Notes: generated by a model from the sequence alone, not told the origin. Shown: positions 23,049 through 62,302, counted from the stretch's first letter. The stretch is DNA of 64,000 bases from Paenibacillus sp. FJAT-29882 (GCF_001510645.1 NZ_LMVB01000001.1:1602436-1666435), one strand, 5' to 3'. Numbers and translations are program-made.

Positions 23049-23059
23049 AATTTTCCAGA

Positions 23060-24722: not shown

Positions 24723-24779
24723 AGAAAAATTCGGCAAAACTGAATACGATATGGGCAACTATTAGAATGAGGTGACTTG

Positions 24780-25985: not shown

Positions 25986-25989
25986 TTAA

Positions 25990-48054: not shown

Positions 48055-48750
48055 TTGGATGAAATTTTAATTGTTGAAGACGATGCGGATATTCAGAAGA
48101 TTTTATCAATGAATTTATCACTTGAAGGGTTTGCCTATACGATTGCTTCAACTGGAATGGATGCTATTAAAAAAGTTCGGGAAAAAACACCAGATCTTAT
48201 TCTTTTAGATATACAATTACCCGATATGAATGGAATTGATTTATGTCAGCAACTGAGAGAAATGACAGCCGTACCCATCCTGTATGTAACCTGTAATAAT
48301 GAAGATAAGGAAAAAATTCTTGCTTTTGCAATGGGGGGCGATGATTATATTGAAAAACCCTTCAACTCAAGAGTTCTAATCGCCCGCATTAAAGCCCACT
48401 TAAGACGAAATTCAATTAATCACAATCAAAATACGTTGAAAAAGCAAATCACTTTTGATGATATCGTCATCGATCTATCAGCTCGGGAAGTAAAGCGAAA
48501 TGGCCAAGTGATTGAATTAACAGCAAAGGAATTTGAATTGCTTACTTTTTTTGCCCAGCATCCAAATCAAGTATTTTCAGCGGAACAGCTTTTAAATCAA
48601 ATTTGGGGATATGATTCGTTTAGTGAGAAAAGTACGATTATCGTTCATATTTCAAACTTGAGGAAAAAGATTGAGGATTATCCAGTAAACCCATCCTACA
48701 TTATTACAATGAGGGGGGTCGGCTACAAGTTTGTTCAAACGTCCATTTAA
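48055..48750 (+). CDS. OmpR-family response regulator
   Basis: The 231-residue protein has an N-terminal receiver with acidic pocket VEDDAD, phospho-acceptor Asp in LILLDIQLPDMNG and the Lys in YIEKPF. A C-terminal OmpR/PhoB winged helix follows (about 130-230; ELTAKEFELLTFF, HISNLRKKIE). TTG 48055 follows TGGAGG. Its end overlaps the histidine kinase start by 20 bases, so the pair is co-translated. Targets are unknown; the next downstream genes are the flavin/cupin cluster. Confidence 0.93.
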   Translation: MDEILIVEDDADIQKILSMNLSLEGFAYTIASTGMDAIKKVREKTPDLILLDIQLPDMNGIDLCQQLREMTAVPILYVTCNNEDKEKILAFAMGGDDYIEKPFNSRVLIARIKAHLRRNSINHNQNTLKKQITFDDIVIDLSAREVKRNGQVIELTAKEFELLTFFAQHPNQVFSAEQLLNQIWGYDSFSEKSTIIVHISNLRKKIEDYPVNPSYIITMRGVGYKFVQTSI

Positions 48751-50881
48751 GTTAAAAAAATCCCACTATTTTAAAATATTAGCATTTACAACAATGATCT
48801 CTTTTATTCCCTTTGTTATGATCGCTGCATACAGTATGTATCAAGGAAGCAATCTATCAAATCAAATTATGAAAGATCAAATAGCCAATACCAAAAAAGA
48901 AGTGTTATCACAAAAACTCTTGTATTTACAAAAAGAAACTCAAAATTTGAATACAGATTTGCACAATCTCGAAAACACATTAAGATTAATTCAAAAACAA
49001 GCTGAAACTATTTATAGTCGGCCTAATCTAGCTCTTTCAAATGAATTACATGTAACAAAGGGAAAAGAAGGTTACTTGTGGGAAACATTTGACGATAAAT
49101 ATGAAAAAACAAATGTTTTTATTAGTTCTAGATCAAGCGATTTGGTTGATACAGTAACAAATGAACTGAAAATAGCAAAGCAACTTGAACCATTGTTCGT
49201 TCAAACGATGGAAAATGAAACGATGATCAATGCCGTTTACTTAGCGTTACCTAGTTCTTCTTGGCTATATTATCCGTTTTTAGACGTTGAGGCTGCCATT
49301 TCTTCAAAAAAATTTGCACCTAATCTGCGTTTTCAAGATTATGAATTTTATACAGTTGCTTTAAATCCACAACGGAAAGTGAAATGGACGAAACCTTATA
49401 TATGGTCGGCTAAACCTATGGGGGATGTAACGAAAGAGGATTGGCTAATATCAGTCGGGGCACCCGTTTATTTGAATTCGGTCGAATTTAAAGGAATGGT
49501 AGGTCTAGATGTACCCATTGAAAACATTACAAACAAATTAATGGACGTCAAATTCAGTGAACCAAACGCCTTTGCCTTTTTAATTGATGATAAAGGTAAT
49601 TTTATTTCGGGACAAACGAAAGCAGAGGGGATCGAGGAGAACGTACCCCTTATGAATAGCGCTATAAAAAATAAAGAAGGCATCTTGCCAATAACCTATT
49701 CCAATTCAGAGGCGTATCTTTTATCCTCATCATTAAATAACGGATGGCGTCTCAATTTTATCATTTCAGAATCTGATATTGTCGAACCAATTGTCAAAAG
49801 TACAGAGGCACAAACGAATAAGCATATGCTGCTTTTTTTATCTCATCTTTTAGTATTTTTACTTTTCGGAATCATTATTCTGTTATATATGACCTACCGT
49901 TTTTCACGAACAATCACCCAACCAATTGATCAGTTAACTACTGCGCTAAGAGAAAGTGCAGACGGCAATTTTGTGAAAGAACTTCATATTGAGCAAGAAG
50001 ATGAAATTGGTAACTTGGCGGTAGCGTTTAATTTTATGAACCGAAAAATCCAAGAATTAATTGGGGAATTAAACTTAAAAGCTCATCAACTGGAAGACAA
50101 AGTGTTAGAGCGAACGAAAGAGTTGGAAAATGCTAATGAACGGTTAATTAACACAAACCAACAACTTCAAGAATCTGAGAAACGGCGAAAAGAATTTATG
50201 TCACAGATTTCTCACGATTTAAAAACGCCATTAACGTCCGTAAGAGAATACACAGAAATCTTAGTTAATCATCAGCTACTTCCTGAAATCCAGAAAAAAG
50301 AAATTATGAATTCCATACTACTACGCAGTAATCATATTATCCAATTAATTAATGACTTATTTGATATGAACACGGATGATGATGGAGATTACGTAAAAGA
50401 AGTCATTCCATTTGATTTCTTGATGGAGCAATCGTTAAACATGATTGCGATCCGATCAGAAGGGTCCGATATTGAAATTACTAAAAACTATGAAGTAGGT
50501 TCATTGTTCATTTTTGTTGATCCTAAGAAAATGAATCGCGCCTTTATTAACATTTTAGAAAATGCCATTAAGTATTCAAAATCAAAAAATGGTAAGAAAA
50601 TTAAAATAGACATTTTTGCCTACCAACAAAATGAAAACTTGATTATTAAGTTCAAAGATTACGGAATTGGTATATCGGAAAATAATAAAGAAAAAATATT
50701 TCTTCCATTTTTTAGAGAGAAAAGAACAAGTACCGAAAAAATTCAAGGAAATGGATTAGGTTTGCCTATCGTTCAAAAAATTATTACCCTACACGATGGA
50801 CATATTTTAGTAGAAAGTAAAGTAAGCGTAGGAACGACGATTACGATTGTGCTGCCATTAGTAGAGCTATCAGATTTTTAA
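48731..50881 (+). CDS. Cache-type sensor histidine kinase
   Basis: The 716-residue kinase has TM1 (about 15-33), a large extracytoplasmic domain of about 330 residues with Cache-like PVYLNSVEFKGMVGLDVPIE, and TM2 (about 365-388). A HAMP domain, a coiled coil (about 445-480), HisKA (FMSQISHDLKTPLTSV) and HATPase_c with NGLGLPIVQKI follow. Large Cache domains usually bind small molecules such as amino acids or organic acids. TTG 48731 is inside the regulator gene with GAGGGGGGT upstream. It pairs with the preceding response regulator. The ligand is unknown. Confidence 0.92.
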   Translation: MFKRPFKLKKSHYFKILAFTTMISFIPFVMIAAYSMYQGSNLSNQIMKDQIANTKKEVLSQKLLYLQKETQNLNTDLHNLENTLRLIQKQAETIYSRPNLALSNELHVTKGKEGYLWETFDDKYEKTNVFISSRSSDLVDTVTNELKIAKQLEPLFVQTMENETMINAVYLALPSSSWLYYPFLDVEAAISSKKFAPNLRFQDYEFYTVALNPQRKVKWTKPYIWSAKPMGDVTKEDWLISVGAPVYLNSVEFKGMVGLDVPIENITNKLMDVKFSEPNAFAFLIDDKGNFISGQTKAEGIEENVPLMNSAIKNKEGILPITYSNSEAYLLSSSLNNGWRLNFIISESDIVEPIVKSTEAQTNKHMLLFLSHLLVFLLFGIIILLYMTYRFSRTITQPIDQLTTALRESADGNFVKELHIEQEDEIGNLAVAFNFMNRKIQELIGELNLKAHQLEDKVLERTKELENANERLINTNQQLQESEKRRKEFMSQISHDLKTPLTSVREYTEILVNHQLLPEIQKKEIMNSILLRSNHIIQLINDLFDMNTDDDGDYVKEVIPFDFLMEQSLNMIAIRSEGSDIEITKNYEVGSLFIFVDPKKMNRAFINILENAIKYSKSKNGKKIKIDIFAYQQNENLIIKFKDYGIGISENNKEKIFLPFFREKRTSTEKIQGNGLGLPIVQKIITLHDGHILVESKVSVGTTITIVLPLVELSDF

Positions 50882-51030
50882 GCAATATAAGTAACTATTT
50901 AGCAAATGGAGGGAAATGCCCATTACATTAATAAAAAATGTGACTTTAGAACAACATTAAGTTTTTATTCCGACAACAAACGTTGAAACATTTAACAATC
51001 TAGATTTCTTGTTTACAATTGACGAATTAA

Positions 51031-51149
51031 GGGTGCCCAAATAAAAAGGTTAGATTCACATTTCCTATATATCGTTTATTTAACGCGTGATAACATACTA
51101 AACGGTTATAGAGTGTGAGGACAGGCTTTTTGGGACACCCTATTTTTTT
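51031..51149 (+). repeat. Dispersed repeat/terminator element
   Basis: GGGTGCCCAA (51031-51040) faces TTGGGACACCC (51130-51140) and a T-run follows. Inside are CCTATATATCG and AGAGTGTGAGGACA, words shared with the elements at 16769 and 2097. It follows the kinase gene. Confidence 0.65.
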
Positions 51150-51641
51150 GTTTAAGTGTTCGATATCATTTCATCCGTCGACATGAAGCCTGTAAAATAG
51201 CGAAAATTCATGAGGAATTTTATATTTTTTGGAATTTATTGAAAATTTATCGTTAGTTTAGATTGACTTTAGGATAACTTTATAAATAAATATTATGATA
51301 CATGTATAGAAAAAAGTTACAGCCAAGAAGAGATGCACAGTTTGAATGAAACGAACGCTACTATCGTAATTCAGATCGTTTGACCGTTCGATATGTAAAC
51401 GCTATCACGTATAATCATCATTCATTCTAGAACAATTAGAAATATATTTTGTATGCAGGGAAGAAATGATTGTCGCTAACAAACAAGAGATAAACATAAT
51501 GCCGGAGCAGTTGATCAATTCGTGTTAAAGACCAACTATAAAGTTATATTTGACGGTGAAAGCACTGGAGTTGCTTATTGTTAGCAAATCGACTGACTTA
51601 AACCTTCAATTCTATATAATGAACTGTTAGGAGGCGGATAT
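51150..51641 (+). other. Intergenic region with a cupin-gene relic
   Basis: GTTATATTTGACGGTGAAAG (51542-51561) also occurs near the end of the cupin gene at 52561, and the flanking CCAACTATAA resembles the cupin's CCAACTACAA. No open frame remains. The rest of the stretch shows no gene; RBS AGGAGG for the next gene lies at 51629-51634. Confidence 0.55.
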
Positions 51642-52529
51642 GTGGAAGTCATTTATGTAAATGAAAGCAACAGGCATTTGTGTCTAGCAGAATCTGAACC
51701 AAGTGCAATTGCTTTAGGATTTTTTGATGGGGTTCATCTAGGTCATCAACAAGTTATCAACGAAGCTATAAAAATCGCTGATGAAAAGCAACTGCAACTT
51801 GCATGTATGAGCTTTTTCCCCCACCCCAAAGAAGTGCTTAAACGAGATAAGAAAAAAATTCAATATTTAATGCCGATGATTGCCAAACAACGGATTTTGA
51901 AAAAGTTAGGTGTGCAAAAGTTTTACATCGTGGAATTCGATCAAGATTTCGCTTCATTAACACCAGAGAAATTTGTACAAAAATATCTCCTTGACTTTGG
52001 AGTAAAGTATGCAGTTGCTGGATTTGACTTTACTTATGGTCAATTTGGAGAAGGGAATATGGATCGAATAAAAGCGGACTCTAACCACATCATTGAAGGA
52101 ATAAAAGTAAAGAAAGTGGAAATTAATGGTGAAAAGATAAGTTCTACTTTAATAAGAAAGTTAATTTCTACTGGAAAAATGGACATCGTTCACCGTTACT
52201 TAGGGGAGCATTATCAAATCAAAGGGCAGGTTTTTTCAAATAAAAAAAGTGTTGAAATAGTACCGAGTCCTTATTACCTACTTCCTCCCCCTGGAGTATA
52301 TGAAGTAATTGTTTCAAAAGGGGATGAAACAGACAAACAAGTCGTCTTAGTCACCCAAGATGCTACTAAAATAATTTCTCCTGCTCATAGTAAACGAATA
52401 TTAGAGAACCAGGAAGAAATTCATATAAGCTGGCTAAAACGTTTGTCTCCTGGATCGTTCACGTTTTTGGAGCAACAGCCTAAACATAATTTGATGAATA
52501 AACCGGTTATTACTTCCGGGCTATTATAA
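51642..52529 (+). CDS. FAD synthetase-like adenylyltransferase with eroded riboflavin-kinase domain
   Basis: The 295-residue protein has a RibF-type FMN adenylyltransferase domain (about 1-185) with GFFDGVHLGHQ, FFPHPKEVL, GFDFTYGQFGEG and ISSTLIRKLI. The C-terminal part (about 190-290) begins like a flavokinase barrel (HRYLGEHYQIKGQVF), but the GFPTAN-type ATP motif is absent. It may therefore make FAD from FMN only, or serve a non-catalytic role. GTG 51642 follows AGGAGG at seven bases. The first cupin gene follows 31 bases later, suggesting dedicated FAD supply to the cluster. Confidence 0.8.
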   Translation: MEVIYVNESNRHLCLAESEPSAIALGFFDGVHLGHQQVINEAIKIADEKQLQLACMSFFPHPKEVLKRDKKKIQYLMPMIAKQRILKKLGVQKFYIVEFDQDFASLTPEKFVQKYLLDFGVKYAVAGFDFTYGQFGEGNMDRIKADSNHIIEGIKVKKVEINGEKISSTLIRKLISTGKMDIVHRYLGEHYQIKGQVFSNKKSVEIVPSPYYLLPPPGVYEVIVSKGDETDKQVVLVTQDATKIISPAHSKRILENQEEIHISWLKRLSPGSFTFLEQQPKHNLMNKPVITSGLL

Positions 52530-52560
52530 AATAAAAATTAAAAATAATGGAGGTACAAAA

Positions 52561-52974
52561 ATGAGCACAGAAACTACATGGTTAGATGAATTGACGTATT
52601 TAAACGATAAGCCAGGTGTGAAGGTCATTAAAGCAGGGACATATAAAAAGAAGGAGTTAAATAAAATTCTTGGTGTTCCAAATCTTGAAAGCCAAATTAT
52701 TGATGTTCCGGTTTGCACAGATAAGCATGGTTTACAAATGGGTTACTTCTCTATGCAAAATTCAGAAGATTTCGAATTCACGTACACATTTTTAGAAATA
52801 AAAATCGTGTATAGAGGGAAAATAATTGTTCGTGACGAGCAAGGGAAAAAGTATATCGCTGAAGAAGGAGATGTATTCGTTTTCAGCCCAACTACAACCG
52901 TTATATTTGACGGTGAAAGCGACGGAGACGCTTTTTATACCGCACATCGTCTGCCTGAACCCTCGTTTATCTAA
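52561..52974 (+). CDS. EutQ-like cupin protein, copy 1
   Basis: The 137-residue protein has a single cupin barrel (about 50-125; EIKIVYRGKIIVRDEQGKKYI, EEGDVFVFSP) resembling EutQ-type cupins. The usual metal-binding His pair of cupin motif 1 is missing, so a metal-free structural or binding role is likely. A near-identical layout recurs in the next gene. AATGGAGG precedes ATG. It lies between the FAD-synthase-like gene and its paralog in the same operon. Confidence 0.8.
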   Translation: MSTETTWLDELTYLNDKPGVKVIKAGTYKKKELNKILGVPNLESQIIDVPVCTDKHGLQMGYFSMQNSEDFEFTYTFLEIKIVYRGKIIVRDEQGKKYIAEEGDVFVFSPTTTVIFDGESDGDAFYTAHRLPEPSFI

Positions 52975-53042
52975 GTAATAAAAATAGTGAGTAATAGAAT
53001 TTGAATATATGATAATAAAAAAACTGATAGGAGTGGATATAT

Positions 53043-53456
53043 ATGTCCCAACAAACAACAGAAGCAAAAAACTATGATTATTTGAGCAAAGCACCTGGTT
53101 TCCAAATTATTAAAGCAGGCACTTACCAAAAGAAAGAATTAAATGGACTGCTAGGAATCCCAGCACTAAAAAGCCAAATTATTGATGTTCCAGTTACATC
53201 AAAAGAAAATGCCATTACAATGGGATACTTCGATATGCAACCAGGTGAAGAATTTGAATTTGTATATGAATTTTTAGAGGTGAAATTTGTCATCAAAGGG
53301 CAATTTATCTTACGTGATGAACAAGGGAAAAAATATGTAGCAAAAGCAGGAGATGTCGTCATCTTCACGCCTAATGTACCGGTGATTTTTGATGCTGAGA
53401 GCGATGGTGAAGCTTTCTATACAGCCCATCGTATACCTGAACCATCATTTTTGTAA
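53043..53456 (+). CDS. EutQ-like cupin protein, copy 2
   Basis: This 137-residue paralog of the preceding gene shares KAGTYxKKELN, SQIIDVPV, MGYFxMQ, RDEQGKKYxA and AFYTAHRxPEPSF. It too lacks metal-ligand His in motif 1. TAGGAGTGG precedes ATG 53043. Retention of two diverged copies in one operon suggests a hetero-oligomer or two related ligands. Confidence 0.8.
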   Translation: MSQQTTEAKNYDYLSKAPGFQIIKAGTYQKKELNGLLGIPALKSQIIDVPVTSKENAITMGYFDMQPGEEFEFVYEFLEVKFVIKGQFILRDEQGKKYVAKAGDVVIFTPNVPVIFDAESDGEAFYTAHRIPEPSFL

Positions 53457-53552
53457 AACATGCTGGAACATAAACAAAAAACAGTATGACCCCAACTGAA
53501 TAACGTTTAAATATTCTAATTTACCTTAAATGAACAAAGGGAGGATCCAGCG

Positions 53553-54320
53553 ATGCATACAGTCAATGCCATGAGCTATCAGGACTTTGACTTTGAATTA
53601 GAAGGTCAGAAAGTACTGTTAGAAGATATTTTCCCGAACTTCAATGAATATGACCGCGTTGGAGTGGTCGTAAGAGAAACAGGTGGCGGAACTGGTGCGA
53701 GTAGTTTACTAATGTCGGCACTTACAAGATTTTATGATTTTTTTCGACCTAATCTTGGTGTTGAGCCTGGGCAACAGTTTATTTATCCCGAGTTTTTTAT
53801 CTTCCATGTAGGGAAGCTACATATGACCCATTATTGGATGGATATTTGGCCGCCGCATAAAGAGATTGTCGTTGAGGATGATCCTGAACAAATTTTAGAA
53901 GCGATTAATGACCGCGGCATTACACGGTTGCTCGTGGAAGACATTGCGCCTATCCAACCTATTTTTTTAAAAGAAACATTAAATAGTGCGAAACATCGAA
54001 TTGTTAGCGCATTGGCTTATTCTCCGACAGGTCGTGTTGAAAATAGCGATATCCAGATCACCAGTTGTGAAGCTGCAGAAAAAAATGTACTTGACACTAT
54101 CAAAATTTCAGAAGACCTTTCGAATGAAGAAATGGCTCTATTACTAGAACGACGGAACTCTCTTAAAACGAATGGGCGTGTAACTGAAACATATCGCCGC
54201 ATCGAAGTATCCAATGCTTTGAACATGCTTACTCAAAATACTGAACCGGGTCCTACTACACGAAGCTATTTTAAAATGCTTGAAATGGAAGATGAGATTT
54301 CGAAAGACAAAGTCATTTAA
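53553..54320 (+). CDS. Unrecognised 255-residue protein of the flavin/cupin cluster
   Basis: The soluble acidic protein has a Gly-rich loop (VVVRETGGGTGASSLLMSA, about 38-56) and an aromatic/His segment (FFIFHVGKLHMTHYWMDIWPPHKEI, about 85-110, quoted in parts). The C-terminal third is helical. The Gly-rich loop could bind a nucleotide or flavin phosphate, but it is not a standard Walker or Rossmann motif. GGGAGGATCC precedes the ATG. It sits between the cupins and the acyl-CoA-dehydrogenase-like gene. I do not recognise the family. Confidence 0.72.
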   Translation: MHTVNAMSYQDFDFELEGQKVLLEDIFPNFNEYDRVGVVVRETGGGTGASSLLMSALTRFYDFFRPNLGVEPGQQFIYPEFFIFHVGKLHMTHYWMDIWPPHKEIVVEDDPEQILEAINDRGITRLLVEDIAPIQPIFLKETLNSAKHRIVSALAYSPTGRVENSDIQITSCEAAEKNVLDTIKISEDLSNEEMALLLERRNSLKTNGRVTETYRRIEVSNALNMLTQNTEPGPTTRSYFKMLEMEDEISKDKVI

Positions 54321-54410
54321 TTGAATCTATACCTGTATTAATCTACATCAATATTAAATCATACGGATATCCTATTAATTTAAATAAAAATTGCTGAGGA
54401 GTGAAGAATC

Positions 54411-55631
54411 ATGTCAGTTTCTAACACAGTATTAAATGAAGGTATTATGCAAATTCCAAGCTGGTGGACTTGCCCTCCAGGTTATGAAGAATTACAAGCG
54501 AAGGCACACGCACTTGGAAAAAGTGAATTGCTAGAAAGAGCTGCAATTTCTGATCAGGAAAGCCGCTATCCTCGTGAAAGTATAAGTAAAATTGCTGAAG
54601 CAGGATTTGGCGCTGTTACCCTTCCGAAAGAGTATGGTGGACTTGGAGCTGGACTTACTGGTTTTGCCGTATTATCTGAAAGTTTCGCACAATATTGTGC
54701 ATCTTCAACGATGTGTTGGGTTATGCATACAGCTGCTGTTCAAACACTATTTTCAGCTGGTAACGAAGAGCAGCGTCAGCGTTTTATTCCTGATGTTCTT
54801 CGAGGAAAAATCGGCGGGTTAGCTTTTAGTGAACCAGCAACTGGAAGTCACTTTTGGAATGTAGTTAGTGAAGCCCCGCGTCTTGGAAATGGCTACTCAT
54901 TGAATGCCGATAAATCATTTGTTACAAGTGCTGGAGAAGCTGATTGGTATGTCGTGGCGACAACGTATCCAGAAAGTACAAATTCTGATAAATTAATGTT
55001 CTTACTTGTAGAAAATGGGCAAGAGGGAATTACGCAATTTCCATTCTCTGCAATGGGACTTCGCGGAAATTCTAGTGGACCAATGAAATTTAGAGATGTA
55101 TATGTCCCGGCTGAAAACCGTCTCGGCAGTGAAGGCGGGATGAATTATCACAATGATAATACAATCGATCCACTGTTTTTATTAGGAACAGCTGCTTGTT
55201 GGACTGGTATTGCACAAGGTGCTCTTAATGCAGCGATTAATGGTGCGAAGAAAAAGGTTCATGCTGATACCGGAAAATCAGTAGCTAGTTATCAAGTCAT
55301 CCGTCATGAATTGGCGAAAGCTCAAATAATGGTGGACAGTGCAAGAAGTATGCTTTATCGAACAGCCGAAGGTCTGGACAAAGCTATTGCAAATGGGACG
55401 CCACTAGGAGAATGCCTATTCCCAATTTGGCAATTAAAAACTCATGCAGCTGATATCGTTATTCAAGTAACGAACCAAGCGCTACAAGTTTCAGGAGGAA
55501 GAGGCTATTTGACAGGTCAAGTAGAGAAATATTTACGAGATGGTCGCGCTGGTGCAATAATGGGACCTACAAATGAAATTTTACGTGAGTGGATTGGCAA
55601 TACATTAATCGATGTTCCATGGTTTGAGTAA
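54411..55631 (+). CDS. Acyl-CoA-dehydrogenase-fold flavoprotein, probable monooxygenase type
   Basis: The 406-residue protein has the three ACAD domains: helical start with PKEYGGLGAGLTG, middle beta domain with AFSEPATGSH and TSAGEADWY, and C-terminal helical bundle with QVSGGRGYL. At the position of the catalytic Glu in YEGTNEI of true dehydrogenases it has IMGPTNEI. This loss suggests the flavin-dependent monooxygenase/hydroxylase branch (DszC-like), which needs FMNH2 from a reductase. An FMN reductase gene follows. GAGGAGTG precedes ATG. Substrate unknown. Confidence 0.8.
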   Translation: MSVSNTVLNEGIMQIPSWWTCPPGYEELQAKAHALGKSELLERAAISDQESRYPRESISKIAEAGFGAVTLPKEYGGLGAGLTGFAVLSESFAQYCASSTMCWVMHTAAVQTLFSAGNEEQRQRFIPDVLRGKIGGLAFSEPATGSHFWNVVSEAPRLGNGYSLNADKSFVTSAGEADWYVVATTYPESTNSDKLMFLLVENGQEGITQFPFSAMGLRGNSSGPMKFRDVYVPAENRLGSEGGMNYHNDNTIDPLFLLGTAACWTGIAQGALNAAINGAKKKVHADTGKSVASYQVIRHELAKAQIMVDSARSMLYRTAEGLDKAIANGTPLGECLFPIWQLKTHAADIVIQVTNQALQVSGGRGYLTGQVEKYLRDGRAGAIMGPTNEILREWIGNTLIDVPWFE

Positions 55632-55659
55632 ATTATAGACGAAATTAAATTTCTATTTA

Positions 55660-55710
55660 TATACCAGGACCGAAACGAAGTGGTTTGGTTCTGGTATATA
55701 TCTCTTTTGA
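55660..55710 (+). terminator. Strong hairpin after the ACAD-like gene
   Basis: The arm at 55660-55677 (core TATACCAGGACCGAAAC) pairs with 55683-55699 (G-U allowed), followed by ATCTCTTTT. It probably ends the transcript from the FAD-synthase-like gene. Bases 55711-56086 hold no convincing gene; a promoter for the next unit must lie there. Confidence 0.75.
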
Positions 55711-56086
55711 AAGGGTATGGCCCATTTCATCCTAAAACAATTAACATCTTCTCGGTAAAAATGGCACTGGGATTCCGTAGGTTTTTCGTTTTTGGAGTGG
55801 TACTTCATTTATTTGTTAAAGGGGCACACATCATAAATCCTCTTTGGACTCACTTCAATAATAGGAGAAAGGACGCCACCCTTCATCGAAGATTAGTATG
55901 ATGTTATTATGAGTCAAATACTTCCGGAAAAATTTTCTGAATATTTTGTAATTTTAGCTTTTGAATAACCAAAAAATATCAAGACCATTTAGTTATGAAA
56001 GTCGAAAGATGGTACAAGTAAATCCTTGTTTCCGCTAACTCGACATATGCCAACAGGATTATATTAGTATAAGGAGGATATTTAGC

Positions 56087-56647
56087 ATGAAGTTACTAGG
56101 GATATCAGGAACAATTACTGGATCGAAACCACGAGTTGTCGTTCAACAAGTATTAGACGAAGTAAAGCGAAACAACCCGGAAATTGAAGTAGAATTGCTT
56201 GATTTGAAGGATTATAATATTCAGTTCTGTGATGGCCGTAATCCGTCATCGTATACGGGAGATACGAAGAAAGTGATCGATATTGTTTCCACAGCAGATT
56301 TTTATATTATTGGTACTCCAATTTTCCAAGGTTCTATTACTGGCGCTCTTAAAAACTTATTCGACTTAATCCATCCGAAAGATTTTCGCAATAAAGTAAT
56401 GGGCTTTATTGCTACAGGGGGAACATATCAACATTATTTAGTCATTGAAAATCAATTGAAGCCAATTGCCGGATATTTCCGTGCATTTGTTGCACCAGGA
56501 TTTGTTTATGCTCATAATGACCATTTTAGTCCTCAAAATGAACTAGTTGATAAAGAAGTATTAGAACGTGTGACCGCTTTAAGCGAAGAAGTCGTCCTTA
56601 TGCAGAAAGCACTAAAAGCTTCAAAGAGCGCTATTCAATATAATTGA
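56087..56647 (+). CDS. NAD(P)H-dependent FMN reductase (SsuE-like)
   Basis: The 186-residue flavodoxin-fold protein has the phosphate loop GISGTITGSKPR, a flavin-contact GTPIFQGSITGALKNLFD and GFIATGGTYQHYL. These match the SsuE/MsuE-type reductases that supply FMNH2 to partner monooxygenases. ATAAGGAGG precedes the ATG. Its position downstream of the ACAD-fold protein suggests it is the reductase of a two-component oxygenase. It has its own upstream region after a terminator, so control may differ. Confidence 0.86.
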   Translation: MKLLGISGTITGSKPRVVVQQVLDEVKRNNPEIEVELLDLKDYNIQFCDGRNPSSYTGDTKKVIDIVSTADFYIIGTPIFQGSITGALKNLFDLIHPKDFRNKVMGFIATGGTYQHYLVIENQLKPIAGYFRAFVAPGFVYAHNDHFSPQNELVDKEVLERVTALSEEVVLMQKALKASKSAIQYN

Positions 56648-56969
56648 ATGGCAAGTTGAGGTGATCAAACATTAAACGAATCATTAATGAAAAAAAGAAT
56701 GAACAACGTGTAGAATAACCTCTTTTTTCTAAGAATTCAACTAGGGAAAAGAGAGTTTTTCTTTTTAGAAACATTAACTAATTAGGATTAGCCGAAACAA
56801 TGATTTTCTTGATTATTAAAGAGTTAAATGTGCAATTCTTCTCGACTGAACTTAGCCTATGGAAGTTGTTGAATATACGTATAGTTTCTTAGATGATAAC
56901 GGTAATGAATTTCAGCGAACATTAGGATATGTAAATGAAGCTGGAATCATTTCATTAGGAGGGGCATTT
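56648..56969 (+). other. Intergenic region with in-frame leader before the DMT gene
   Basis: From ATG 56859 an open frame of 37 codons (MEVVEYTYSFLDDNGNEF...) runs in frame into the DMT transporter. The better start is ATG 56970, right after AGGAGGGG. The stretch looks protein-like and may be an old N-terminal gene piece or chance. No strong terminator is seen after the reductase gene. Confidence 0.4.
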
Positions 56970-58037
56970 ATGAGTTTAGTGGATATTGCTAGAACTAAAC
57001 ACAAAGAGAAGACAGTACGTTTGGGCTTTATGTGGGCTTTATGGGCAGCCATATTGTGGGGAGCATGGTATGTACCTGGATCAGCGATTTGGTATGAGTT
57101 TCCTTTCGTTTCCATGCCTTTTCAAACAAATTCTGAATATGTGACAGCGGCAGCCGTAATAGCCGGTTTAAATGCAATCGCTGTTTTATTGTTTATGTTT
57201 GTGTGGACAGGCGTTTTAGGTAAATGGAAAGATTACGGACGGACGATTGTTCAGTTTAAAAAAGTGACGAAATGGTATTTTGTAGCCGCAATTTTCGGCG
57301 GACCGATGGCTATTTTCGGAAGTTTTTTAGCGATCGGCTTTATTGGCGGTGTTTTTGCGGCAGTAGCAGCATTAATGTATCCCATTGTAGGTTCTATACT
57401 AGCGTACAAATGGTACGGGGAAAAAATAACTCGAAGGGCTGCTATCGGGATCGCCATGATTATTATCGGCGGGATCGTCGTATTTGCGCCTGGTATTTTA
57501 GGTGAGCTGAAAGATAGCTCAGGCGCTTGGTTAGGATACTTGGGCGGATTAATGGCTGCCGTTGGCTGGGGAATTGAAGGCGCCATTGCTGGACGAGCAC
57601 TGGATGTTACAGATCCTGATATTGGCTTAACACTTAGATTTACGGGTGAAGTTTTCTGGTGGGTAGCAGTAATCTTTCCGCTGTTTATCCTATTTGGTGA
57701 TGTGCCCATTGTGCCAATGATCGCAAAAACGATGACATTGTTACCGATAACTTGGCTGCTTTTAGCCGGCATTACATTTGGTTTTTGCTACGTATCATGG
57801 TACAAGTCCTTCCCATTAATTGGCGTTGGAAGAGGCCAAGCAATCGGAGACTTATATGGAATCTTTGCCATCATTTTTATCAGTATCTTCACACTTACCC
57901 CGCCAGAATGGAATTTCGTTTTAGGGGCGCTAGTTGTTATTATAGGTGGGTTTGTCATGTTTACTGAAAAACGGGATGTACTAGAAGTCATCCGTACCGT
58001 ACCTTCAGACAAGAAAGAAAAAGAGGAGGCGATATAA
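56970..58037 (+). CDS. EamA/DMT-superfamily transporter
   Basis: The 355-residue protein has ten hydrophobic segments in two five-helix repeats, with FGGPMAIFGSFLAIGFIGGV and WGIEGAIAGRA typical of DMT carriers. TAGGAGGGGC precedes ATG 56970. The next gene's ATG immediately follows its stop. It may import the substrate or export a product of the flavin cluster; direction and substrate are unknown. Confidence 0.82.
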   Translation: MSLVDIARTKHKEKTVRLGFMWALWAAILWGAWYVPGSAIWYEFPFVSMPFQTNSEYVTAAAVIAGLNAIAVLLFMFVWTGVLGKWKDYGRTIVQFKKVTKWYFVAAIFGGPMAIFGSFLAIGFIGGVFAAVAALMYPIVGSILAYKWYGEKITRRAAIGIAMIIIGGIVVFAPGILGELKDSSGAWLGYLGGLMAAVGWGIEGAIAGRALDVTDPDIGLTLRFTGEVFWWVAVIFPLFILFGDVPIVPMIAKTMTLLPITWLLLAGITFGFCYVSWYKSFPLIGVGRGQAIGDLYGIFAIIFISIFTLTPPEWNFVLGALVVIIGGFVMFTEKRDVLEVIRTVPSDKKEKEEAI

Positions 58038-58343
58038 ATGCCGAAAATTCATATTAAAGGAAGGATTCTACAAATCATACGTGAGCATACGATGGAAAGA
58101 CCAGACAAAGGAATATGGGATTATGATATTGCCAAGCAAATTCTGAAAGAATACGGGTTGGCTGGAGCTTATGCCTTAGGGAACGTCCGAGTAACATTAA
58201 CTGATTTGTTTTCAGGAGCGCTTATAGAAACCATTGATGAAAAGTTAGACAAGGGTGAGCACTTTAGTAAGGGTAAGTTATTATTTAAATATTCTCTTAC
58301 AAGCTTCGGTGAAGCCAGGATGCGTGATACAGGAATCATTTAA
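58038..58343 (+). CDS. Small winged-helix-like protein
   Basis: The 101-residue protein has a helix-turn-helix-like layout (GRILQIIREHTMERP, DYDIAKQILKEYGLAG, ALGNVRVTLTDLFSGALIET) and ends with a strand and helix (YSLTSFGEARMRD). It looks like a PadR-type or related winged helix. GAGGAGG precedes ATG 58038, directly after the transporter stop. It may regulate the cluster, but DNA binding is inferred only from the layout. Confidence 0.7.
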   Translation: MPKIHIKGRILQIIREHTMERPDKGIWDYDIAKQILKEYGLAGAYALGNVRVTLTDLFSGALIETIDEKLDKGEHFSKGKLLFKYSLTSFGEARMRDTGII

Positions 58344-58363
58344 CTAACTAAGGAGTGGATTAT

Positions 58364-58483
58364 ATGCCTGAAATGAGCGAGTTTTGGGGCTTTGAATTAG
58401 CTCCATATATTTCGATATTTGGAATAACTGCCTTGGCGCTATTTTGTCTATTTACAGCAAGGACGTATGTGAAGAAATTATGA
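58364..58483 (+). CDS. 39-residue single-span membrane peptide
   Basis: TAAGGAGTGG stands eight bases before ATG 58364, a strong signal for a real small gene. The peptide has an acidic, Trp-containing start (MPEMSEFWGFEL), one hydrophobic helix (ISIFGITALALFCLF) and a basic end (RTYVKKL). Its place 20 bases after the winged-helix gene, in an operon with a transporter, suggests a small transporter-accessory subunit. No family is recognised. Confidence 0.7.
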   Translation: MPEMSEFWGFELAPYISIFGITALALFCLFTARTYVKKL

Positions 58484-59011: not shown

Positions 59012-59170
59012 ACTCTTATCGAGAGCGGCGGAGGGAATAGGCCCTGTGAAGCCCGGCAACCATTAAGTGAATGCTTAAAAAGGTGCTAAATCCTGCAGAT
59101 CATGTGATCTGAAAGATGAGGGAGGTTTTTTTTATTAAAACCCTCTTCTTACTAGAAAGAGGGTTTTTTA
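59012..59170 (+). ncRNA. SAM-I (S-box) riboswitch with terminator
   Basis: The sequence CTTATCGAGAGCGGCGGAGG (from 59015) followed by GCCCTGTGAAGCCCGGCAACC and AAGGTGCTAAATCC has the S-box core. GAAAGATGAGGG closes P1. A terminator AAAACCCTCTT/AAGAGGGTTTT lies at 59137-59167. GAGGGAGGTTTT can pair with AAAACCCTC as the antiterminator. High SAM should terminate transcription, so the importer is on when sulfur or methionine is scarce. Confidence 0.96.
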
Positions 59171-59252: not shown

Positions 59253-60236
59253 ATGAAGAATAGGCTTAGAAGTACACTGGTACTAATTGGATTAATATTG
59301 CTTTCTGGTTGCTCGAATGATGTAAGTGGTACTGGGACAGATGCTAAACCAAAGAAAATTATCCTCGATTATGCGTATTATTCACCGGTCAGTTTGGTAT
59401 TAAAGGATCAGGGCATTGCTGAAAAAAAATTCAAAGATGAAGGCATTGAAGTTGAATTTGTACTTAGTCAAGGATCAAATAAAGCGTTAGAATTCCTTAG
59501 CTCAGAGAGTGTTGATTTCGGTTCCGCTGCCGGTGCGGCTGCACTATTAGCCAAAGAAAAAGGTACACCAATCCAAACCGTTTATATTTCTTCCAAACCA
59601 GAGTGGACAGCACTTATGGCGAAAAAAGGTACAATCAATTCTGTATCTGATTTAAAAGGCAAACGTATTGCAGCTACACTTGGTACTGACCCCTATATTT
59701 TTCTGTTGAGAGCCCTGAAGGAAGCTGGTCTTTCCTCAAAAGATGTCGAAATTGTCAACTTACAGCATAGTGACGGTGCCCTAGCCGTACAATCAGGTGA
59801 TGTTGATGCCTGGGCTGGTCTTGACCCTCATATGGCAAAGGTCGAATTGGAGTCAGACATTCAAATCTTTTATCGTAACCCAGATTTCAATAGCTTTAGC
59901 ACACTTGATGTTCGCGAGGAATTCGCTGAGAAATACCCCGTTTATGTTGAGAAAGTCCTTGAGGCATATGAAGAAGCACGTCAGTGGACAATTGCCCATC
60001 CAGATGAAACGACAGAAATACTTGCTAAAGAAGCTAGCATTTCATTAGAAGTAGCAAAAAAGGAATTGGAGCGAAATGACTTTTCAGAACCGATTCCAAG
60101 TAATGAACAAAAGGCTATCATTATAGGGTCAGGTGAAGTTCTAAAAGAAAATGGTTTATTAAAAAGTTCGACAGATGTTGAGAAGCTGACTGATAAACTT
60201 CTTAATTCTAAATTTGCCGTAAAAGTACTCAAATGA
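59253..60236 (+). CDS. SsuA-like sulfonate-binding lipoprotein
   Basis: The 327-residue protein has a lipoprotein signal with lipobox LLSGC (Cys at about 20). A type-II periplasmic-binding fold of the SsuA/TauA/NMT1 group follows (LSQGSNKALEFLSSESVDFGSA, LKGKRIAATLGTDPYIFL). TGGAGG precedes ATG 59253. A SAM-I riboswitch upstream indicates sulfur control, supporting organosulfur compounds (sulfonate or similar) as ligand. The monooxygenase SsuD/TauD expected beside such genes is missing. Confidence 0.88.
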   Translation: MKNRLRSTLVLIGLILLSGCSNDVSGTGTDAKPKKIILDYAYYSPVSLVLKDQGIAEKKFKDEGIEVEFVLSQGSNKALEFLSSESVDFGSAAGAAALLAKEKGTPIQTVYISSKPEWTALMAKKGTINSVSDLKGKRIAATLGTDPYIFLLRALKEAGLSSKDVEIVNLQHSDGALAVQSGDVDAWAGLDPHMAKVELESDIQIFYRNPDFNSFSTLDVREEFAEKYPVYVEKVLEAYEEARQWTIAHPDETTEILAKEASISLEVAKKELERNDFSEPIPSNEQKAIIIGSGEVLKENGLLKSSTDVEKLTDKLLNSKFAVKVLK

Positions 60237-60261
60237 TGGATCAGAAGGGATTGAGAAAAGA

Positions 60262-61101
60262 ATGTTGGAGCATAGTGAGCATGCAGTATTAACTAAGGCG
60301 AATAAAACAAAACAATCACGATATACAAAACCGAAGACAAATCGTAAAGTATTGCTTGGCAGCATCCTGCCGTTGACACTGTTGATTATCTGGGAAGCTT
60401 CCGGCAGGATGGGGATAATCGAATCACACCTTCTTCCTATACCTTCAGTAATAGTAGAAGGGCTGTATCAGATGGCATTGGAAGGAACACTTTGGGGACA
60501 TATTGGAACAACTTTAATTAGGGTATTTGCCGGTTTTCTTATCGGAACATTCACAGCAGTTATAATCGGATCACTGGTCGGTTATATGAAGATTTTCGAA
60601 GAATTAATAGATCCAATTATTCAAGCCTTTCGCTCCATCCCATCTCTTGCTTGGGTTCCATTATTCATCTTATGGATGGGCATCGGGGAATCCTCTAAGG
60701 TAATATTGATCGCAGTCGGAGTGTTTTTCCCAGTTTATCTGAATATGGTTGCTGGGATACGGGGTGTAGACAGAAAACTGATTGAAGTCGGTAAAATCTA
60801 TGGATATACGTCCTTTGAAATTGTCAGCAAAATTATTCTTCCCGCATCGCTTCCTTCATTATTAACTGGAATCCGCAGTGGCCTCGGACTTGGTTGGATG
60901 TTTGTTGTCGCTGCTGAAATCATGGGAGCCTCAAAAGGACTCGGATACTTGCTAATAGTGGGACAGAATACGTATTCTCCTGATGTTATTATCGGAAGTA
61001 TTATCTTATTCGCCATTCTTGGGAAATTCACTGATTGGCTTTTAAAATTTATTGAAGAACGCTCACTAAGATGGCAAGATAGTTATGCAAATCAACGTTA
61101 G
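60262..61101 (+). CDS. SsuC-like ABC permease
   Basis: The 279-residue permease has about six membrane segments and an EAA-type loop (EVGKIYGYTSFEIVSKIILP). The TauC/SsuC-type segment IPSLAWVPLFILWMGIGE is also present. GAAGGGATTGAG precedes ATG 60262. It is the second gene of the SAM-riboswitch operon and would move the SsuA-bound compound inward. Confidence 0.89.
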   Translation: MLEHSEHAVLTKANKTKQSRYTKPKTNRKVLLGSILPLTLLIIWEASGRMGIIESHLLPIPSVIVEGLYQMALEGTLWGHIGTTLIRVFAGFLIGTFTAVIIGSLVGYMKIFEELIDPIIQAFRSIPSLAWVPLFILWMGIGESSKVILIAVGVFFPVYLNMVAGIRGVDRKLIEVGKIYGYTSFEIVSKIILPASLPSLLTGIRSGLGLGWMFVVAAEIMGASKGLGYLLIVGQNTYSPDVIIGSIILFAILGKFTDWLLKFIEERSLRWQDSYANQR

Positions 61102-61113
61102 GAGGGACTTAGA

Positions 61114-61815
61114 ATGTTGTCCGTAGAGCAAGTTTCGCGAACATTTAATAATAAACAGGTTGGTTTTACAGATGTTTCGTTCACCGTCAAGGAAGGGGAA
61201 GTCATCGGTATCCTAGGCACGAGCGGCTGCGGGAAAAGTACATTGCTTCGAGTTCTAGCAGGGCTTGACAAGGACTATACGGGCAAGTTCACATGGGAAA
61301 AGGAGCAGGTCGGGATGATGTTTCAGGAGCCCCGTTTAATGCCGTGGCTAACAGTGGAACAAAATGTCGGTTTTGGAATGAAGGGTGATAGCAATTCTAC
61401 TATTCAAGAGCTGCTCAAGCTAGTAGGATTAGCGGGATTTGAAAAGCTTTATCCTAAGGATCTTTCAGGGGGGATGGCCCAACGGACAGCACTAGCACGG
61501 GCACTTGTAACTGAGCCCAAGGTTATATTACTCGATGAACCATTCAGTGCTGTTGATGCTTTTACAAAAATGCAGCTACAGAAGCTTTTGCTTTCCATCT
61601 GGAAACAACAGAATACAACCATGTTGCTTGTTACTCATGATATTGATGAAGCATTATTTCTATGTGACAAGATATTCATCCTTAGAGGCCAACCTGGTGA
61701 ATTGTATGAGACGATAATAATTTCGGAACCTAAACCGCGAGATCGCGGCGATTTTAAATTAACTACTAGGAAGGCTGAAATCCTTTCTTTACTTGATTTA
61801 AAACAAACTGTTTAA
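61114..61815 (+). CDS. SsuB-like ABC ATPase
   Basis: The 233-residue ATPase has Walker A GTSGCGKST, Q-loop MMFQEPRLMPWLTV, signature LSGGMAQRTA, Walker B VILLDEPFSAVD and H-loop LLVTHDIDEA. The QEPRLMPW loop is typical of sulfonate, nitrate and taurine importers. AGGAGG precedes ATG 61114. It completes the SsuACB-type importer. No terminator is obvious after it. Confidence 0.9.
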   Translation: MLSVEQVSRTFNNKQVGFTDVSFTVKEGEVIGILGTSGCGKSTLLRVLAGLDKDYTGKFTWEKEQVGMMFQEPRLMPWLTVEQNVGFGMKGDSNSTIQELLKLVGLAGFEKLYPKDLSGGMAQRTALARALVTEPKVILLDEPFSAVDAFTKMQLQKLLLSIWKQQNTTMLLVTHDIDEALFLCDKIFILRGQPGELYETIIISEPKPRDRGDFKLTTRKAEILSLLDLKQTV

Positions 61816-62200
61816 AATGAATACCTGCATATTAATTTGAGAATAATTAAAAACTTGTGTATTTTGATTTGACGAATGAAGATATCTTTACATGAGAGAA
61901 TCGGGAGTAAAGTTACATTACCTAAAGTGTCTGAGAACGCTTTAATATCAAGAGATATAGTTTTCTACAGTATGTGTGATTCATATTTTAGTTGCTAACA
62001 ACCAAGTTGTATTGGAAGGGCATTAGAATTGGATTGAAGTGAATTCTGTTACATGGTTGTTTATCATAAATTGAGTTAAACCATATCAAGTGTAAGAGAA
62101 AATTGTACCAAACAATTCATTCAAAAGAACTAAAGTGGATTAATCTTAAAATGATAGTTGAAGATTGCTGAATAATTTGATAAAATATAATAAATGAAAA
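61816..62200. other. Intergenic region before the ZTP riboswitch
   Basis: AT-rich with no gene seen. A TATAAT at 62186-62191 is a likely -10 box for the serA leader, but the -35 box is unclear (TTGCTG at 62165 gives a short 15-base spacer). Confidence 0.45.
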
Positions 62201-62302
62201 GACTATATGTAACTGGCGAAACGCGGATAACCGTGAGGGAGCATATAGTGTCGTAGCCGTTCGCCTGGGCAGAGGTAAGGGGAATTCCCCTTGCCTCTTT
62301 CT
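62201..62302 (+). ncRNA. ZTP (pfl) riboswitch with terminator
   Basis: The core words ACTGGCG (from 62211), CCGTGAGGGAGC (62231-62242) and the 3' element GCCGTTCGCCTGGGCA (62256-62271) match the pfl/ZTP aptamer. A perfect terminator hairpin GAGGTAAGGGG/CCCCTTGCCTC and TTTCT follow at 62272-62301. ZTP or ZMP binding, which signals shortage of 10-formyl-tetrahydrofolate, should permit expression of serA. Confidence 0.92.

Follow-up and report, generated by a model that had tools for sequence, protein, structure and literature searches.

Gene Content of the Block

The window analysed here is a stretch of 64,000 nucleotides of the Paenibacillus sp. FJAT-29882 genome. Positions 48055-58483 hold eleven genes, all on the plus strand, in the order response regulator, histidine kinase, RibF-like protein, two cupins, a 255-residue protein (U255), a flavoenzyme of the acyl-CoA dehydrogenase (ACAD) fold, FMN reductase, DMT transporter, a 101-aa gene, and a membrane peptide. 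The nine genes named by the original prediction between 51642 and 58483 (counted there as eight) all exist in a single orientation, but the conserved unit is bigger, as two upstream genes syntenic with the rest (48055-50881) had been overlooked. The first (48055..48750) encodes an OmpR-type response regulator of 231 aa (PF00072 and PF00486) and the second (48731..50881) a sensor histidine kinase of 716 aa, with dCache, HAMP, HisKA, and HATPase domains (PF02743, PF00672, PF00512, and PF02518) and two hydrophobic segments. Upstream of ribF, at 51436..51616 on the same strand, lies the remnant of a decayed cupin gene, recognised by nucleotide similarity to cupA (70.9% over 175 nt, at 51436-51605) and to a cupin of Domibacillus (74% over 101 nt, at 51518-51616), which is intact and sits between the kinase gene and ribF in that genome.

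The gene at 51642..52529 starts with GTG and encodes a RibF-like adenylyltransferase, as originally predicted. Its FAD synthetase domain (PF06574, 7.5e-47) scores 159.5 bits against a cut-off of 27, and no riboflavin kinase domain is matched in it with Pfam; its best score against a bifunctional RibF equivalog is 240.5 bits, below the 461 needed. A second PF06574 gene of the source genome is a 326-aa frame (G000:C1:2216492), and the protein of the block is predicted to be an FAD synthase dedicated to the cluster. Two EutQ-like cupins follow (cupin A, 52561..52974; cupin B, 53043..53456), both matching EutQ/Cupin_3 (PF06249 and PF05899). They had been described as lacking metal ligands, and no HxH metal motif is found in an alignment of 15 sequences; His129 is nearly invariant there. 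A EutQ acetate kinase identity was rejected, as the two proteins reach only 25.3 and 17 bits of the equivalog cut-off of 193, and visual inspection of the window and of the neighbourhoods read revealed no eut genes. The source genome holds seven copies of the cupin, five of them outside the window on two contigs, amid methylated-amine or RuMP genes.

U255 (53553..54320) begins with Met-His-Thr and was rightly regarded as an unrecognised protein, since its family has no Pfam, NCBIfam, or PDB relative. Searched alone, it has no Pfam match better than E 0.15 and none at all in NCBIfam; when 17 aligned homologues are searched, the lowest values are E 0.062 in Pfam and 0.012 in NCBIfam (ZapA, two members), which were taken as chance. 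His2 is present in the 19 sequences listed, and the family extends to haloarchaea.

The ACAD-fold enzyme (54411..55631) matches PF02771, PF02770, and PF00441 above cut-off. The predicted loss of its catalytic Glu, in the motif MGPTNE, is confirmed by alignment: the position is Gly in all eight sequences, that of the window included. The protein falls below the cut-offs of the monooxygenase families SfnB (113.5 of 430.9 bits), DszC (59.9 of 850), HsaA (56.7 of 450), and p-hydroxyphenylacetate hydroxylase (46.9 of 650), and it scores 236 bits with a FadE16-like model, above its scores with DszC (60) and SfnB (114). Among the best 60 of 79 PDB matches, the top scorers are named acyl-CoA dehydrogenases, the best of them at 161 bits.

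The gene at 56087..56647 encodes an MsuE-type NAD(P)H:FMN reductase (PF03358, 1.4e-31). It had been called SsuE-like; the FMN reductase assignment stands, but MsuE is closer than SsuE (114 versus 70 bits, both under cut-off). With the best NCBIfam model, TIGR03566 MsuE, it scores 114.3 bits and does not reach the cut-off of 212.5, so that it may work like MsuE and is not classed as MsuE. The DMT/EamA transporter (PF00892, 355 aa) occupies 56970..58037, its start being moved from 56859 on the basis of a Shine-Dalgarno sequence and of where homologue alignments start. Its 101-aa partner (58038..58343) has no Pfam or PDB match and an AlphaFold model with a pLDDT of 45, and the earlier description as winged-helix-like finds no confirmation in these. 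The block closes with the predicted single-pass membrane peptide of 39 aa (58364..58483), which has one hydrophobic segment and is conserved.

Conservation and Genomic Company

The full ordered block recurs in four of eight named loci, from Peribacillus loiseleuriae (L006), P. huizhouensis (L007), Bacillus sp. OV166 (L008), and Domibacillus aminovorans (L012), that is, in three genera; the Domibacillus copy has additional cupins. The other four loci carry U255 in other surroundings. In a further genome (G371) the block is intact from the end of U255 through the peptide, and a contig break removes the remainder. The gene neighbourhood thus exceeds chance, because the order of the 11 genes is kept in all three genera. 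Two observations had been set beforehand as counting against the cluster, namely lack of a conserved neighbourhood in related genomes and clear assignment of its members to unrelated known pathways, and neither was made. The downstream flanks vary among relatives, and the block is most likely a compact, horizontally spread gene set. Neighbouring ssuABC genes, preceded in the window by a SAM riboswitch (S-box) at 59013-59122, were considered as members and rejected: among the relatives they occur only in L006, about 4 kb past the peptide, and they were not found in the approximately 6 kb downstream of the block in L007, L008, and L012.

In a sample of 397 genomes of the order (thresholds of E<=1e-120 for the ACAD and E<=1e-20 for the cupin), the ACAD is present in five, spread over five families. 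The cupin occurs in six, including all five with the ACAD, and U255 in five, four of which are shared with the ACAD set. The dimethylamine monooxygenase HODM is much commoner (80 genomes, 75 of them without the ACAD) and is also found in all five ACAD genomes. Hypergeometric values for co-occurrence with the ACAD, uncorrected for kinship, are 7e-11 for the cupin, 2e-8 for U255, and 3e-4 for HODM, and the cupin and the ACAD are shown to travel together. U255 is missing from G233 and stands without ACAD or cupin in G412.

ACAD, cupin, and HODM share one locus in three of the five ACAD genomes. G088 (L042) has consecutive genes for cupin, HODM, DmmA-like protein, reductase, and U255, and G145 (L043) has cupin, HODM, reductase, U255, and DmmA-like protein, with the ACAD close by in both. 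In G233 (L059) a single orientation is kept from ACAD through cupin, RibF, Amt, IclR, HODM, DmmA-like protein, reductase, and glutamate-synthase-like subunits to a glutamine-synthetase-like gene (for L043 and L059, the names DmmA-like, reductase, and IclR were assigned by eye). RibF belongs to the HODM loci of G088 and G233 and is not adjacent to the ACAD in G145. HODM is known from dmmABC and the N-methylglutamate pathway, where it would act one step after the reaction proposed here for the ACAD (PMC5520151); the main text of that paper makes no mention of a cupin, an acyl-CoA dehydrogenase, or a hypothetical protein. The DMT transporter has no match in the 19.9-kb stretches of these three loci, and ammonium transporters are found there (by eye in L042 and L043).

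The transporter has its own company. Of five plasmid records with a DMT match (E<=1e-20), four, all proteobacterial, carry trimethylamine dehydrogenase (TMADH) at a distance of 7-12 kb, and the 101-aa gene directly follows the transporter in all four (L096, L097, L098, and L100). Three of the TMADHs, from three species, match PDB 1djn/2tmd at full length with 1315, 1433, and 1453 bits; about 530 bits is reached by the family that comes next. Conversely, the transporter unit is found with four of seven plasmid TMADH records (>=73% identity), the three Paraburkholderia records having no DMT match; within 9 kb of a Methanohalobium homologue, no amine genes are annotated. In the TMADH/ETF clusters of Cupriavidus oxalaticus, Azoarcus sp. 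KH32C, and Paracoccus aminovorans, the transporter is 52-61% and the 101-aa protein 43-48% identical to those of the window. The membrane peptide occurs in at least two of the three: L096 and L098 each have a homologue behind the 101-aa gene, and L097 shows the same C-terminal motif. A two-component regulator is nearby, as in the window, in Azoarcus, where it is annotated, and in Cupriavidus, where it was recognised by eye; in Cupriavidus HODM also immediately adjoins TMADH. These clusters contain TMADH, an Fe-S protein, and ETF, whereas the window instead contains ACAD, FMN reductase, RibF, cupins, and U255.

Proposed Function and Competing Explanations

The substrate had been called unknown, and its class can now be assigned. 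Because ACAD, cupin, and HODM co-occur and the transporter unit accompanies TMADH, a role of the block in methylated-amine use is strongly supported. Judged from gene content, the region 48055-58483 is rather likely a horizontally spread module for the use of methylated amines, with trimethylamine (TMA) as its most likely substrate. The breakdown of TMA, a fishy-smelling methylated amine, is relevant to odour, marine nitrogen, and methylotrophy.

The established enzymes of the TMA step were not found in the eight genomes examined. TMADH was rejected, since there is no close TMADH among their PF00724 proteins: six genomes, the source genome among them, have no frame above 418 aa, and the near-TMADH-length proteins of G233 (646 aa) and G088 (680 aa) are just 28-30% identical to TMADH. 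Tmm/Tdm oxidation is not supported either. Full-length matches to FMO-type Tmm occur in none of the eight genomes and partial FMO-like ones in all, in a search run without known Tmm as positive control; DUF1989, part of Tdm (PMC12560246), is present in one genome as short frames of 242 and 255 aa. The rest of the route has candidates in the source genome, with HODM alpha on contig C6 (G000:C6:49238-50074), away from the window cluster, a primary-amine oxidase on contig C18, creatininase, a SoxA-type oxidase, and the RuMP enzymes hexulose-phosphate synthase (HPS) and isomerase (PHI).

In the proposed scheme, the sensor kinase would detect the amine and the transporter unit would import TMA. The FMN reductase would hand reduced flavin to the ACAD-fold enzyme, which would convert TMA to dimethylamine and formaldehyde, directly or via an N-oxide/carbinolamine, while the cupins and U255 might assist demethylation or deal with its products. 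Dimethylamine would pass to the HODM-type monooxygenase, methylamine to the primary-amine oxidase, and formaldehyde to hexulose-phosphate synthase and isomerase. The module may thus stand in for the TMADH/ETF or Tmm/Tdm of other bacteria via an unrelated flavoenzyme. Both TMA as the substrate and oxygenase chemistry are what we infer from these genes. The earlier two-component oxygenase proposal holds as regards a set built around flavin, which brings both a flavin supply and a reductase of its own; since in L042, L043, and L059, the loci of dimethylamine type, the reductase does not adjoin the ACAD, and its best relative in G145 is about 32% identical, the oxygenase itself goes no further than a putative one. 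In G233 a 65% identical relative carries an internal stop.

The lack of adjacency in these three loci and the distant relative in G145 favour an ACAD acting as oxidase or dehydrogenase, which would take hydride from the N-methyl group of a tertiary amine, with no catalytic base needed, and hand the electrons on to oxygen or to a carrier; the FMN reductase would then have only a loose tie to it. The named dehydrogenases among its best-scoring solved relatives point the same way. However, in the window and in five further window-type loci the reductase gene comes directly after that of the ACAD, and no ETF gene was found among the block proteins with Pfam; we regard this chemistry as somewhat unlikely. 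Its substrate overlaps with that of the preferred explanation and only the chemistry differs; loss of the Glu fits both chemistries alike. The module may instead serve dimethylamine, a tetra-alkylammonium, an N,N-dimethyl amino acid, or another N-methyl compound, with the ACAD as first demethylation enzyme. Since creatininase, SoxA-type oxidase, and amine oxidase loci of the source genome hold cupins, the cupins may mark several N-methyl substrates, and it is the transporter unit, not the ACAD, that is associated with TMADH. Yet HODM already covers dimethylamine in all ACAD genomes, and the proximity of the transporter unit to TMADH in four of five plasmid records speaks for TMA, so that another substrate is unlikely.

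An export role has also to be weighed, as DMT/EamA members can be exporters and import is itself a predicted direction. Amine detoxification, with the transporter exporting the amine and the flavoenzyme inactivating it, is nevertheless highly improbable given the candidate downstream route into RuMP assimilation in the source genome and the G233 locus, which joins the ACAD with methylamine-pathway-like genes. A low probability, though not as low, is given to an organosulfur two-component monooxygenase cluster, which would act on dimethyl sulfide, sulfone, or sulfonate and secure sulfur in concert with the ssuABC genes under S-box control. The reductase is of the fitting MsuE type, group D enzymes are able to oxidise dimethyl sulfide (PMC13352529), and sulfur substrates are possible because a Methylocystis ACAD relative, 38-39% identical, adjoins SfnG/dimethylsulfone monooxygenase, with DszC/SfnB-like ACAD, MsuE, SsuD, and RibA/RibB genes also near. 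However, within about 6 kb downstream ssuABC accompanies only one of the related blocks, the block has no luciferase-fold gene, and ACAD, cupins, and RibF share loci with dimethylamine genes.

Relation to Known Systems

For the TMA reading, the cluster offers concrete candidates for the enzyme, its reductase, the transporter, and the sensor, along with two accessory protein families, and the question of the TMA step becomes directly testable in cultured strains. A 2015 survey of Gram-positive methylotrophs (PMC5023230) reports no trimethylamine monooxygenase gene in two Bacillus genomes, and the present candidate would fill that step. That cupins lie beside methylamine genes is already known from the same survey: small EutQ-like cupins, as in the window, adjoin methylated-amine genes in multiple copies per genome, Bacillus included, and are left unexplained. 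Acyl-CoA is never mentioned in the text of the survey, whereas the window cluster pairs the cupins with an ACAD. A first functional context is also gained for the U255 family and for the unit of transporter, small protein, and peptide that is shared with TMADH clusters. More tentatively, the ACAD might be a new type of TMA demethylase, a group D N-demethylating oxygenase evolved independently of TMADH and Tmm/Tdm, and U255, with its conserved Met-His N-terminus, a new accessory or metalloprotein family for oxidative N-demethylation in bacteria and haloarchaea; this joint proposal is possible rather than probable.

Group D monooxygenases (DszC, MsuC, and Dms1-3) have in common with the window the ACAD fold, the lost catalytic Glu, and an MsuE-type reductase, and Dms1-3 with MsuE oxidise dimethyl sulfide (PMC13352529), a precedent for the chemistry proposed here. 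Their setting is one of sulfur, whereas that of the window ACAD is one of amines. At the lost Glu the window protein has GP and the DszC/SfnB-like protein of Methylocystis DP, the Pro being found in both.

The conserved block and its limits

In the 5.3-Mb assembly of Paenibacillus sp. FJAT-29882, where the window is C1:1602436-1666435, the genes for a response regulator, a histidine kinase, an FAD synthase (RibF), two EutQ-like cupins, a 255-residue protein of an unnamed family (U255), a flavoenzyme of acyl-CoA dehydrogenase fold (ACAD), an FMN reductase, a DMT/EamA transporter, a 101-residue protein (wh101) and a 39-residue membrane peptide starting at 58364 form a single block. In tblastn searches of the window proteins against fetched relatives, the block is complete and in the same order, with 52-99% identity, in Peribacillus loiseleuriae, P. 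huizhouensis, Bacillus sp. OV166 and Domibacillus aminovorans, the last of which has extra cupins. The two Peribacillus species are the closest named relatives that the U255 search found (96% identity). The original prediction of a flavin-centred cluster at 51642-58483, with a neighbourhood to be sought in related genomes, is borne out: all of its genes are there in a single orientation, and the block found in the four relatives is larger than that stretch. These are four of the eight loci from the U255 search; the remaining four carry the U255 gene in other settings. In a further genome (G371), the part from the end of U255 to the peptide is retained and the contig is broken. Downstream of the peptide the gene content varies among relatives, and the unit is therefore taken as 48055-58483. 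Within it, intergenic gaps of 455 nt (55632-56086) and 322 nt (56648-56969) flank the FMN reductase gene. The window retains the decayed fragment of a cupin gene at 51436-51616, before ribF, at a place occupied in Domibacillus by an intact cupin.

Pfam supports the assignments of the FAD synthetase, the two EutQ/cupin genes, the ACAD (by three acyl-CoA dehydrogenase domains), the FMN reductase and the EamA transporter. The FMN reductase keeps its predicted family and loses the label "SsuE-like", since MsuE is the nearest model, with a score under the MsuE cut-off. The FAD synthase is a second copy in the genome and is kinase-less. The transporter start was set at 56970 because a strong Shine-Dalgarno sequence precedes it and the additional N-terminal residues can be aligned in some relatives only. 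No recognized relative of wh101 was found in Pfam, NCBIfam or PDB, and a PDB profile search gave nothing convincing; the helix-helix-helix-hairpin order of its AlphaFold model (pLDDT 45) does no more than hint at a winged helix. A scan for promoter-like sites (39 against 41.6 expected) and terminator-like sites (3 against 7.1 expected) was uninformative.

The ssuABC genes, considered as cluster members, were ruled out by synteny: among the four syntenic relatives they were seen only in P. loiseleuriae, about 4 kb from the block. In the window, a SAM riboswitch (59013-59122, 89.1 bits) precedes an SsuABC-type ABC transporter (59253-61815) directly downstream of the cluster. A ZMP/ZTP riboswitch (62199-62277, 58.4 bits) lies upstream of a gene at 62448, named by eye as D-3-phosphoglycerate-dehydrogenase-like, and two betaine/choline-type ABC transporter operons were recognized by eye from the ORF list at 20519-27717.

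Association with methylated-amine genes

The cluster is very probably a methylated-amine module, and two lines of evidence lead to this assignment. The first comes from dimethylamine-type loci. The enzyme encoded by dmmABC is an established dimethylamine monooxygenase (PMC5520151, available portion). In genome G088, a cupin, a dimethylamine monooxygenase alpha gene of this type (HODM, PF11927), a DmmA-like protein (PF22289), a ferredoxin reductase and U255 lie in this order on one strand, and an FAD synthase domain protein is also encoded. The order in genome G145 is cupin, HODM, reductase, U255 and DmmA-like protein (reductase and DmmA-like protein named by eye), together with a SoxA-like oxidase, a type III glutamine-synthetase-like gene and a glutamate-synthase-like gene. 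Near both loci there are ammonium-transporter-like genes and an ACAD, 80% (G088) and 77% (G145) identical to that of the window. A third run, in G233, comprises ACAD, cupin, FAD synthase, ammonium transporter, IclR regulator, HODM, DmmA-like protein, reductase, GATase, GXGXG protein, glutamate-synthase-like protein and GmaS-like glutamine synthetase; family matches identify the FAD synthase, transporter, HODM, GATase, GXGXG and glutamate-synthase-like proteins, the others being named by similarity to the previous two loci or by eye. GmaS and Mgs constitute a published methylamine route, and their roles at these loci rest on family matches. In the G233 locus (L059), HbpS-like and cyclase/arylformamidase-like genes (6341-7718) immediately precede the ACAD.

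U255 is present in 3 of 43 genomes of the family and in 5 of 397 drawn from the order. In the same draw, ACAD (E ≤ 1e-120) occurs in five genomes, the cupin (E ≤ 1e-20) in six, including a match in G148 on a contig that may be contamination (plasmid genes Acinetobacter-like by eye), and HODM in 80, 75 of which are without ACAD. All five ACAD genomes have both cupin and HODM, and four have U255. The hypergeometric probabilities, with kinship ignored, are 7e-11 for ACAD-cupin, 2e-8 for ACAD-U255 and 3e-4 for ACAD-HODM. Since the ACAD genomes fall in five different families and the rest of the draw is without ACAD, the distribution points to horizontal spread. The G148 cupin (L078, 9248-9664) shares its possibly contaminant contig with plasmid genes and with genes that by eye are formaldehyde-detoxification-like (S-formylglutathione hydrolase-like); loci L078-L081 gave nothing new beyond more cupin or U255 copies.

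The Paenibacillus genome itself contains seven cupin copies. Outside the window, on contig C18, one adjoins hexulose-phosphate synthase and one a second 255-residue gene; on contig C6, one lies between hexulose-phosphate synthase and HODM genes, one adjoins an IclR gene and phosphohexuloisomerase, and one adjoins a creatinase-like/SoxA-type pair. Two further C18 genes score above their family cut-offs, one for a primary-amine oxidase with 937.6 bits (cut-off 651) and one for a creatininase with 312.3 bits (cut-off 235). Because HODM, primary-amine oxidase, hexulose-phosphate synthase and phosphohexuloisomerase genes occur in it, the genome holds candidates for the conversion of dimethylamine to methylamine, of methylamine to formaldehyde, and for formaldehyde assimilation. 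The stretch of C18 at 1-20000, with the second 255-residue gene, cupin, NCS1 permease, mannitol-type PTS, PRD regulator, betaine-type binding protein, hexulose-phosphate synthase, primary-amine oxidase and creatininase, is a candidate creatinine/N-methyl catabolic island. On C6 (41000-54474), a hexulose-phosphate synthase/HxlR-like pair beside the HODM genes is flanked by two cupins with identical translation, which suggests a recent duplication. The association of cupins with methylated-amine genes is prior art: EutQ cupins of unknown function have been described near such genes in Arthrobacter, Mycobacterium and Bacillus (PMC5023230, available portion). According to the same portion, trimethylamine monooxygenase was not found in its two Bacillus genomes, and the term "acyl-CoA" has no occurrence in the text of that paper.

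The second line comes from the transporter unit. Homologues of the window transporter occur in 5 of 72,556 plasmid records (E ≤ 1e-20). In Cupriavidus oxalaticus, Azoarcus sp. KH32C and two Paracoccus aminovorans records, the transporter is followed by a 101-residue homologue, and a trimethylamine dehydrogenase (TMADH) lies 7-12 kb away; Azoarcus and Cupriavidus also have a recognizable peptide, and in Paracoccus the C-terminal motif of the peptide can be made out. Three TMADHs tested against PDB 1djn/2tmd match over full length with 1315, 1433 and 1453 bits, histamine dehydrogenase giving about 530. In Azoarcus and Paracoccus, electron-transfer flavoprotein genes are annotated between the unit and TMADH, with family support for one gene each, and in Cupriavidus HODM adjoins TMADH. 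Two observations speak against the association: in the fifth record, from Methanohalobium, no amine gene is annotated within 9 kb, and three Paraburkholderia TMADH records (89-90% identity) have no transporter match. These comparisons cover four TMADH-type records from three species, among 57 on plasmids (20 listed), and the HODM neighbourhood of Cupriavidus, among 148 plasmid HODM records (15 listed). In two Paraburkholderia plasmids (NZ_AP023182.1, 229389-235334; NC_010625.1, 486108-492048), HODM lies within about 3 kb of TMADH and the transporter has no match.

The proposed trimethylamine step and the chemistry of the ACAD

Trimethylamine is a fairly probable substrate of the module, and the ACAD is, with slightly less assurance, its probable demethylating enzyme. 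The two claims are mutually dependent, and the whole statement of a methylated-amine module acting on trimethylamine through an ACAD demethylase deserves at best that lesser degree of assurance. The ACAD is a candidate for the trimethylamine step because known enzymes were eliminated and because of its gene position. Across eight genomes that carry parts of the system, the FMO family gave partial weak matches only, the best at 1.9e-17 and covering 213 of 532 positions, in a search with no known Tmm as positive control. DUF1989, which belongs to Tdm (PMC12560246, available portion), is absent from seven of the eight. No close TMADH relative was found in them: six lack a PF00724 frame above 418 residues, and the longer proteins of the other two share 28-30% identity with TMADH. 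A non-orthologous replacement of the key step is proposed, in a pathway with one unnamed protein family. In the literature searched, as far as its texts were available, no link between an acyl-CoA-dehydrogenase-type enzyme and trimethylamine was found.

All eight aligned ACADs have Gly, within the motif MGPTNE, where acyl-CoA dehydrogenases have their catalytic Glu. Isobutylamine N-hydroxylase is a group D enzyme of this fold that oxidizes an amine. Group D enzymes together with MsuE also convert dimethyl sulfide to its sulfoxide and sulfone (PMC13352529, available portion), a close chemical analogue of methylated-amine oxidation. Against an oxygenase, the ACAD sequence is nearest to FadE16-like and dehydrogenase models, and the reductase is not found together with the ACAD in HODM-type loci. 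A simple hydride transfer from the amine, for which no base is needed, would also fit the loss of the base. On balance, oxygenase is the somewhat likelier reading, with oxidase a serious competitor.

On Methylocystis iwaonis plasmids (L045, 7923-9104; L094, 8962-10146), a FadE16-like ACAD adjoins the dimethylsulfone monooxygenase SfnG, opposite msuE, ribA/ribB, a DszC/SfnB-like ACAD and ssuD. It is likely a sulfur counterpart of the window enzyme and has MGPSN in place of MGPTNE; the DszC/SfnB-like protein of the same cluster has HDP, and its scores of 339 and 261 bits reach neither cut-off.

The 255-residue protein family

No recognized relative of U255 was found in Pfam, NCBIfam or PDB, nor among viral contigs, and a PDB profile search gave nothing convincing; AlphaFold, run on nine sequences, reached a mean pLDDT of 38 and yielded no usable structure. 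Plasmids of Paracoccus, Rhodococcus, Arthrobacter, Mesorhizobium, Terrarubrum and haloarchaea carry homologues with 28-38% identity. Eight neighbourhoods were examined among the 14 plasmid matches, and in six of them (all except L020 and L021) the neighbours include genes for flavin oxidoreductases, for transporters or for other catabolic functions. The Terrarubrum homologue has glnT and genes resembling glutamate synthase at a distance of about 7-10 kb.

An alignment of 17 sequences has ten invariant columns. When the start codon is taken at the aligned position, a His directly follows it in 19 of 19 listed sequences, many of them closely related and seven being distant plasmid homologues. 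In L015 the annotated start precedes that position by three codons; in L018 it comes after it, and the aligned position there needs a CTG start; the longest frames of the G088 and G145 proteins begin further upstream. The list is without L021, which has no readable start, and L005-L007 and L009 were not relisted. As a guess, U255 might assist oxidative N-demethylation as an accessory protein and perhaps bind metal via its N-terminus. In G412 (L044, 9592-10278), where ACAD and cupin are absent, a U255 relative adjoins genes named by eye as proline-dehydrogenase-like, aldehyde-dehydrogenase-like and sodium-symporter-like, possibly an N-methylproline context.
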